Shown here: positions 39,831 to 41,225 of the stretch, one piece after another
Layout: each line of letters opens with the position of its first letter
Numbering within the stretch: the stretch's first letter is position 1
NCBI RefSeq assembly: GCF_947331435.1
Contig: NZ_CAMZOF010000001.1
Location: 992,001 to 1,056,000 of the forward strand
Length of the DNA: 64,000 nt
Reading direction: 5' to 3'
From: Pelagibius sp. Alg239-R121
GTDB lineage: Bacteria; Pseudomonadota; Alphaproteobacteria; Kiloniellales; Kiloniellaceae
Translations under genes and position numbers: made by a program
Notes under the pieces: model-generated
What the model was told of the DNA's origin: nothing
What the model saw: only the letters and a program-made list of their open reading frames with translations
The model's database searches: none

Positions 39831-41225
39831 ATGTCTCGCAAGAAGATCGCGCTCGTAGGTGCCGGTAACATCGGTGGTACGCTGGCTTTGCTCGCCGGAC
39901 TGAAAGATCTGGGGGATATCGTGCTGTTCGACGTGGTCGACGGCGTGCCTCAAGGTAAGGCTCTCGATATTGCTCAGCTGTCGACCGTTGCTGGATTTGA
40001 TTCCAAACTTGCCGGCAGTAGCAAGTATTCGGCGATCAAAGGCGCCGACGTAGTCATCGTGACTGCGGGTGTAGCACGCAAGCCAGGCATGAGCCGCGAC
40101 GATCTTCTGGGTATCAACATTAAGGTCATGCAGGCTGTTGGCGAAGGCATCAAGAAAAACTGCCCCAAAGCTTTTGTGATCTGCATTACCAATCCGCTTG
40201 ATGCCATGGTCTGGGTACTGCAGCAGGCTTCCGGTTTGCCGGCGAATAAAGTCGTCGGCATGGCCGGCGTGTTGGACTCGGCACGTTTCCGGTTGTTCCT
40301 CGCTGAAGAGTTCAATGTCTCGGTCGAAGACGTCAGTGCCTTCGTGCTTGGGGGTCATGGAGACACCATGGTGCCCATGGTACGCTACTCGACGGTTGCC
40401 GGCATTCCGCTGACGGATCTGATCAAGATGGGGTGGATCACGCGCAAACGTTTAAATGAAATTGTTGTCCGGACCCGCAACGGTGGCGCGGAAATTGTTG
40501 GTTTGCTGAAAACGGGATCGGCATTTTATGCGCCGGCGGCTTCTGCAATCGATATGGCCGAAAGTTATCTGAAGGATAAAAAGCGTGTTCTTCCCTGTGC
40601 TGTGCACATGAACGGTCAGTACGGCGTCAAGGGTATGTACGTCGGTGCGCCGGTTGTCATCGGCGCCGGTGGTGCTGAGCGGGTGGTGGAATTGCAATTG
40701 AACGCCGGTGAAAAGGCGATGCTCAATAAGTCGGTCACTGCAGTGAAGGGATTGGTCGACGCCTGCAAGGGTATCATGAAGGGCGCGTCCGCTCCTGCGA
40801 AATCGGCTGCAAAAGCAAAAGCAAAGGCAACTGCCAAGGCCCCGGCAAAGCCGGCTGCTAAGAAAGCCCCTGCGAAGAAAAAAGCTACCGCATCAGCCGC
40901 AACCTCAAAGCGCGCCGCAGCGAAGTCCGCAGCTGCGATAGCTCCAGCGGCCAAGGCAGTTGCCAAAAAGCCTGCAGCCAAAAAGCCTGTCGTAAAGAAG
41001 GCAGCGGCCAAGAAACCTGCCGCCAAGAAGCCAGCTGCCAAATCGGCAGCGGTGAAGGCTGCGAAGAAATCCGCGTCAAAAAAACCAGTAGCTAAAAAAC
41101 CGGCAAGTCCTAAAGCTGCTGCGAAGAAACCAGCCGCCAAGAAGCCTGCAGCTAAGAAGCCGATTGCCAAAGCGACTACGGCCCCGAACCCGGCTGCAGC
41201 GAGTGCCGATCCAAAAAAAGCTTAG
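39831..41225 (+). CDS. mdh: Malate dehydrogenase with histone-H1-like C-terminal tail
   Basis: NAD-dependent malate dehydrogenase of the LDH-like (bacterial type 3) group, converting malate to oxaloacetate. Residues 1-~317 are a complete enzyme: [20 protein letters not shown] (NAD site), Arg83 and Arg89 ([12 protein letters not shown]), [18 protein letters not shown] and GGHGDTMVP with catalytic His176. It then continues in frame for ~147 residues of Lys/Ala/Pro repeats (nine KKP units), like histone H1 or AlgP-type tails. Normal Mdh ends near residue 320. An ATG at codon 316 (40776) preceded by AAGGG could start a separate 149-residue basic protein. The ATG at 39831 has AAGGAA upstream; the frame open to 39774 is not needed. 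Confidence 0.95.

Follow-up and report, generated by a model that had tools for sequence, protein, structure and literature searches.

Malate dehydrogenase (Mdh) of Pelagibius sp. Alg239-R121 carries a long, in-frame polycationic tail at its C-terminus, and tails of this kind recur in related genomes. The gene mdh lies at positions 39831–41225 on the forward strand of the window, that is, of the whole stretch of 64,000 nucleotides that was analysed, and its 464 codons plus stop translate to 464 residues with no internal stop, for a mass of roughly 47 kDa as estimated by hand. An LDH-type catalytic core (residues 1–316, 39831–40778, forward strand), delimited by profiles, PDB chains, alignment and an AlphaFold2 model, is followed by a Lys/Ala/Pro tail with a net charge of +43 (residues 317–464, 40779–41222, same strand), recognised by its composition and pLDDT. 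The original prediction had proposed a complete Mdh at about residues 1–317 and an H1-like Lys/Ala/Pro tail of about 147 residues in a frame free of stops and frameshifts, and it held on each of these points, with a tail of 148 residues and nine KKP units (counted by eye on the translation). That the tail acts as a non-specific electrostatic tether, selected for its charge and holding Mdh on a polyanion, is given about an even chance.

The core scored above the cut-offs of NF004863 (454.1 bits, cut-off 283) and TIGR01763 (406.5 bits, cut-off 351.85), both over residues 1–316, and by these matches it is a full LDH-type malate dehydrogenase. Residues R83, R89, N121, D149, R152 and H176, which we take to be the catalytic ones, showed no variation among 20 aligned sequences. 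The best-matching PDB chains over residues 1–315 were 4ros and 3gvh, presumably both alphaproteobacterial, two solved LDH-type Mdh chains that are 320 and 324 residues long and have no tail. In an AlphaFold2 model built from the 20-sequence alignment (mean pLDDT 70.1), a helix at residues 292–316 closes the folded part. LDH-type Mdh is a tetramer. A second Mdh was not found in a search of the genome, nor was Mqo when it was searched for, and the tail thus appears to sit on the only detected malate:oxaloacetate enzyme of the Mdh/Mqo kinds in this genome.

The ATG at 39831 is the likely start of mdh, rather than an alternative upstream GTG at 39774, because AAGGA precedes it and the 14-residue N-terminal stretch that follows it is kept in the four congeners. 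Downstream, mdh adjoins frames named by eye as sucC, sucD, sucA and sucB. The next gene, sucC (41456–42652, forward strand, 398 aa, named by eye), served as an untailed control. The 974 aa encoded by the frame named sucA (43589–46513, forward strand) close with a short Lys/Ala/Gly stretch (KAAAEGKGGKKAAKK), possibly a minor basic tail on a second enzyme of the TCA cycle. Elsewhere in the window, a frame named by eye as ribosomal protein S16 (672–1106, forward strand) has an acidic, Ala/Glu-rich C-terminal extension.

The 148 residues of the tail include 61 Ala, 43 Lys, one Arg, 18 Pro and a single acidic residue, an Asp, and the main repeat unit is KKPxA, five residues in length. With pLDDT below 50 at residues 320–426 and 428–464 of the AlphaFold2 model, the tail is predicted to be disordered. 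It shares its Lys/Ala/Pro composition and a peak of the Lys/Arg autocorrelation at lag 5 with the histone H1-like family HC2 (PF07382, cut-off 40 bits) and with a free-standing HC2-type gene of the same genome, which encodes 422 aa (G000:C4, L037:4200–5468, forward strand). The HC2 scores differ, however: the free gene reached 216 bits, whereas Mdh obtained, depending on the method, 21.3 bits as a whole tailed protein or 42.0 bits at the tail stretch in a genome search reading past the stop. In the genome search, long-tailed Mdh from other genomes scored 33.9 bits for G001 (46.1 with neighbours), 35.4 for G002, 53.5 for G003 and 69 for G007. Against NF038053, the Burkholderiales-type histone H1-like protein, Mdh scored 11.8 bits, below the 80-bit cut-off. 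The lag-5 spacing was present in the Mdh tails of the genus, termed g1 here, of G007 and of G307; the tail of G045 lacked it, and that of G107 had nearly equal values at lags 4 and 5. The longest exact DNA repeat measures only 14 nt in the mdh tail of the source genome versus 104 nt in the free gene, and therefore the protein repeat of Mdh has outlived its DNA repeat. A programmed frameshift at A-runs of the tail was also considered and set aside; runs of at least six A stand at differing codon numbers (unaligned numbering) in the four congeners.

A descent of the mdh tail from the free H1-like gene was set aside as well. The two are 72.6% identical over 226 positions in blastn, and codon-shuffled mdh tails matched the free gene equally well in 9 of 100 cases, so that shared composition may explain the likeness. 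Across the order, HC2 matches above cut-off outside mdh were counted by eye in 15 of 19 genomes with an Mdh tail of at least 20 residues and in 4 of 27 with a tail below 9, a co-occurrence that is confounded by ancestry. The trivial explanation that such tails abound throughout the genome found no support in either of two surveys. Lys-rich, acid-poor stretches of 50 residues occurred in 9 of 4513 open frames of at least 80 codons within 873 kb, a non-random sample of about 11% of the genome that covers the window and the region of the H1-like gene. Mdh was the sole frame among the nine that could be named as a metabolic enzyme; a frame of 401 residues and some short ones remained nameless. The 401-residue open frame (G000:C2 near 50759, reverse strand, L248–L267) bears its Lys/Ala/Ser-rich basic stretch at the N-terminus. 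When the whole genome was searched with the tail as query and 150 of 369 candidates were scored, E fell below 0.001 for two genes only, mdh and a free-standing H1-like gene; the next candidate had E 0.02, 27% identity and an internal stop. Searches of this kind are not exhaustive: with the comparable tail of G007 as query, the matches listed at E 1e-4 included no Mdh tail of the nine other genomes, so that known ones in G001–G003 were overlooked. The pattern KKPA matched 34 times in the genome (6 in mdh, 8 in the H1-like gene) versus 14 times for the reversed control pattern.

The fusion was then compared among relatives. Besides the source genome (G000), three other genomes of the genus were available (G001–G003), including Denitrobaculum tricleocarpae R148 with an Mdh of 450 residues. 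In-frame tails were present in four of four genomes, measuring 134, 130 and 118 residues in the other three, and sucC followed directly downstream of mdh in all of them. The original prediction had held an assembly error to be unlikely; since three other genus genomes carry in-frame tails, misassembly is excluded, and the fusion is real and not a product of chance. The order was sampled with 61 genomes, 57 of which had an Mdh match at 1e-50 and 55 a readable C-terminus (gene cut short in G030 and G037; no match in G005, G022, G040 and G058; the second mdh copy of G054 was excluded from the counts). The search for the fusion in relatives, suggested with the prediction, thus found it in the three congeners and, counting tails of at least 12 residues, in 26 of the 55 readable genomes of the order; at least 20 residues were reached in 19, at least 40 in 8 and at least 100 in 6. 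All tails of at least 12 residues were basic, each with at least 29% Lys/Arg, and pooled they held 494 Lys/Arg versus 4 Asp/Glu in 1423 residues. The longest, of 306 residues, was found in G045 (L144), where Mdh has 622 residues and the tail a net charge of +95, whereas its close relative G046 (L138) in the same genus, g20, has a tail of only 44 residues. The case named in advance as speaking against the fusion, close relatives ending near residue 320 with the tail confined to one misassembled contig, is excluded by the tailed congeners, although Mdh of genus g4 in the same family is without a tail and ends at 319–320 residues in all eight genomes that were read. SucC had no tail, at 398–399 aa, in all 30 loci read, which were the best-scoring 30 of 57 genomes with a match and did not include G045 and G007.

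Beyond the order, the analysis covered 66 loci from at least 244 genomes with a match (at least 249 less 5 in the order), of which 26 were the best-scoring and 40 were mostly chosen for long open frames, so that frequencies are no estimates here. Tails of at least 60 residues were seen in four of these loci, three from g109 and one from G107. The g109 tails (L193, L197 and L202), from another family with genomes of 1.6–2.3 Mb, have 86, 75 and 145 residues, consist of AKRKT/AKKKT pentads and are more than half Lys/Arg, and the tail of G107 has 94 residues of a KKPARKAP-like type. Because other alphaproteobacterial families carry such different long basic tails, these probably arose several times, as judged from sequence comparison. 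On an approximate FastTree tree of 127 Mdh cores, in which 32 of 120 inner branches were drawn open, tails of at least 60 residues require five changes; since g1 and G007 come from a fork that is not resolved, a single gain may account for the tails of both, which would lower the five changes to four. Four or five separate expansions are therefore plausible, and the different repeat units of each lineage would fit separate growth from short basic C-termini.

Within the genus, evolution appears to preserve the positive charge of the tail, not its exact sequence. Net tail charges are +43, +41, +39 and +42 in G000–G003 and +43 in G007 at lengths of 118–148 residues. The tails of G001 and G003 can be aligned with one gap of four residues and gave a dN/dS of 0.117. 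At the 39 lysine codons of these two tails seven changes were found, all of them synonymous and none altering the amino acid. Estimated by hand with ts/tv 4, about a quarter of lysine-codon changes would be silent without selection, and seven of seven would be silent with a probability of about 4e-5. By this codon comparison, the tail lysines are under purifying selection in the alignable pair. Other informative pairs gave 0.127, 0.052 and 0.047 for the tail, two of the six pairs being saturated, and the core ranged from 0 to 0.023 over six pairs. Besides Lys, many exchanges among Ala, Val, Thr and Pro occurred, and pairs with G000 also showed Lys/Pro, Lys/Ser, Lys/Thr and Ala/Lys differences in alignments that are ambiguous. 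No acidic residue was present in the fully listed tail substitutions of G001–G002, G001–G003 and G002–G003, nor among the 14 substitution types listed for the G000 pairs, yet the G000 tail has one Asp.

The charge of the core was found to follow the tail. Within the order (core residues 1–312), core net charge and tail correlated with a Spearman rho of 0.88 in 54 genomes, G018 being left out for its missing N-terminus. In a set of 120 rows (core residues 1–308), net charge was zero or above in 37 of 38 rows with a tail of at least 12 residues versus 18 of 76 with a tail below 9; six rows with tails of 9–11 lay outside these counts, and L206, with a 17-residue extension of two Lys/Arg and two Asp/Glu, was recoded as untailed. 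Positions 267, 113, 109, 70 and 199 are among the most shifted and are Lys in tailed enzymes; 65 and 300 are further examples of shifted positions. A proteome-wide basic shift as cause was rejected on the basis of SucC, the sole control protein, whose net charge averages −16 in both 16 tailed and 11 untailed genomes. Phylogenetic contrasts upheld the link of core charge with log tail length (r 0.33, p 2e-4; p 0.007 by sign permutation) and, more weakly, with tail presence or absence (r 0.29; p 0.07 by sign permutation), and well-supported branches offered only 1 to 3 independent pairs; the link is in part confounded by ancestry. As far as these sequences indicate, tailed Mdh tends to be basic as a whole enzyme, beyond its end.

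The fusion, its spread, the conserved charge and the associated core charge are observations; that the arm binds a polyanion, which polyanion this would be and to what end are inferences. Each subunit would bear a long, lysine-rich arm that is predicted to be disordered, and selection would retain it for its positive charge and not for its exact sequence. Four such arms per tetramer, together with a basic core surface, would then most likely hold Mdh on a polyanion; DNA of the nucleoid or RNA is the most probable candidate and polyphosphate a less probable one. Tethering would bring oxaloacetate/NADH chemistry together at that site, or make nucleoid organisation responsive to the metabolic state. 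A counterpoint to this reading is genus g4, which manages without an Mdh tail.

The main rival explanation, rather unlikely in our judgement, is that the arm serves a metabolon: it would bind acidic partners such as citrate synthase, or retain the dianion oxaloacetate, and thereby support TCA channelling without nucleic acids. The neighbourhood of mdh to the frames named as sucC, sucD, sucA and sucB speaks for it, oxaloacetate has been described as held electrostatically between Mdh and citrate synthase (PMC11461322, in the part covered), and a basic Mdh core fits it equally well. However, lengths of 118–306 residues presumably exceed what contact with a partner would seem to need, and SucC, the sole partner candidate compared, is equally charged in tailed and untailed genomes.

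Another proposal, which we regard as unlikely, sees in the tail a tolerated low-complexity expansion, in which a short basic C-terminus grew by replication slippage in a nearly neutral manner and owes its composition to the history of its repeats more than to a function. Short basic C-termini are common in relatives, tail lengths form a graded series between 0 and 306 residues, with the close relatives of genus g20 differing as 44 versus 306, and exact DNA repeats of 74 and 86 nt occur in two g109 genomes and of 42 nt in G007 and G045. The tail DNA of G000 was moreover no closer to the tails of its three congeners than codon-shuffled copies were, of which 63, 90 and 41 in 100 matched equally well, and fine-scale constraint is therefore visible only in the pair G001–G003. 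In that close pair, however, none of the 39 lysines had changed against seven synonymous changes in their codons, which makes tolerated slippage less likely; the listed tail substitutions without acidic residues and the absence of a tail from SucC in 30 of 30 loci also argue against it.

Returning to the proposed tether, several known systems offer parallels. AlgP of Pseudomonas aeruginosa also has a long, predicted disordered C-terminal Lys/Pro/Ala repeat of similar length (154 aa), and its C-terminal KPAA fragment binds DNA (PMC9239181, in part). The repeat unit of AlgP is KPAA with four residues as opposed to mainly KKPxA with five in the Mdh tail, and its N-terminus is a putative alpha-helical domain in place of Mdh, so that the AlgP architecture is absent here, as far as the covered part of that report describes it. 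PhaF of Pseudomonas putida likewise joins a functional domain to a histone-like AAKP tail, which binds DNA unspecifically and ties its cargo to the nucleoid (PMC5658603, in part); the cargo domain of PhaF is a phasin and here a TCA-cycle enzyme, and no phasin family was among the six Pfam matches of the Mdh protein up to E 1. In actinobacterial topoisomerase I, likewise an enzyme, the C-terminus carries lysine repeats that resemble histone H1 and stabilise its DNA complexes (PMC7398561, in part). Unlike Mdh, which has no DNA substrate, topoisomerase I acts on DNA and its tail aids catalysis directly. A precedent for a TCA enzyme on bacterial DNA is fumarase of B. subtilis after DNA damage (PMC5711358, in part).

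AlgP also associates with polyphosphate granules, and PhaF and PhaM connect PHA granules to the nucleoid (same sources, in the parts covered). Such examples would suit a docking of Mdh during starvation, either on polyphosphate or, by way of the nucleoid, on PHA granules; the locus holds nothing seen to suggest granules, and this association is considered quite improbable. A frameshift, misassembly or contamination that fused mdh to a histone-like gene can practically be dismissed, as the fusion is in frame in the assemblies of four species, D. tricleocarpae R148 among them, with sucC just downstream each time.

H1-like tails have been known from proteins of the nucleoid and of granules and from enzymes that act on DNA, and here one is found on a central metabolic enzyme. 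Among the most frequent carriers in a survey of low-complexity regions are IF-2, topoisomerase I, chaperonin, E2 subunits and S16, and Mdh is not named in the covered parts of that survey (PMC6821194). A literature search for Mdh with an H1-like tail yielded none among the open-licence matches listed (titles and abstract starts). An H1-like tail on a TCA enzyme is new to us, and by the comparisons above it appears to be recurrent across lineages. Graded tail lengths from 0 to 306 residues among related species constitute a ready-made comparative system. Should DNA or RNA prove to be bound by the arm, nature would have supplied an example, simple to test, of a TCA enzyme sited at the nucleoid; should the arm instead serve channelling, it would be a natural polycation arm that handles oxaloacetate. 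Either outcome would inform whether bacterial TCA enzymes are spatially organised. Tentatively, in several alphaproteobacterial lineages Mdh might be a polyanion-bound enzyme on the nucleoid (or on RNA or polyphosphate) that links central carbon metabolism to the chromosome, brought about by repeated growth of an arm on an already basic core.
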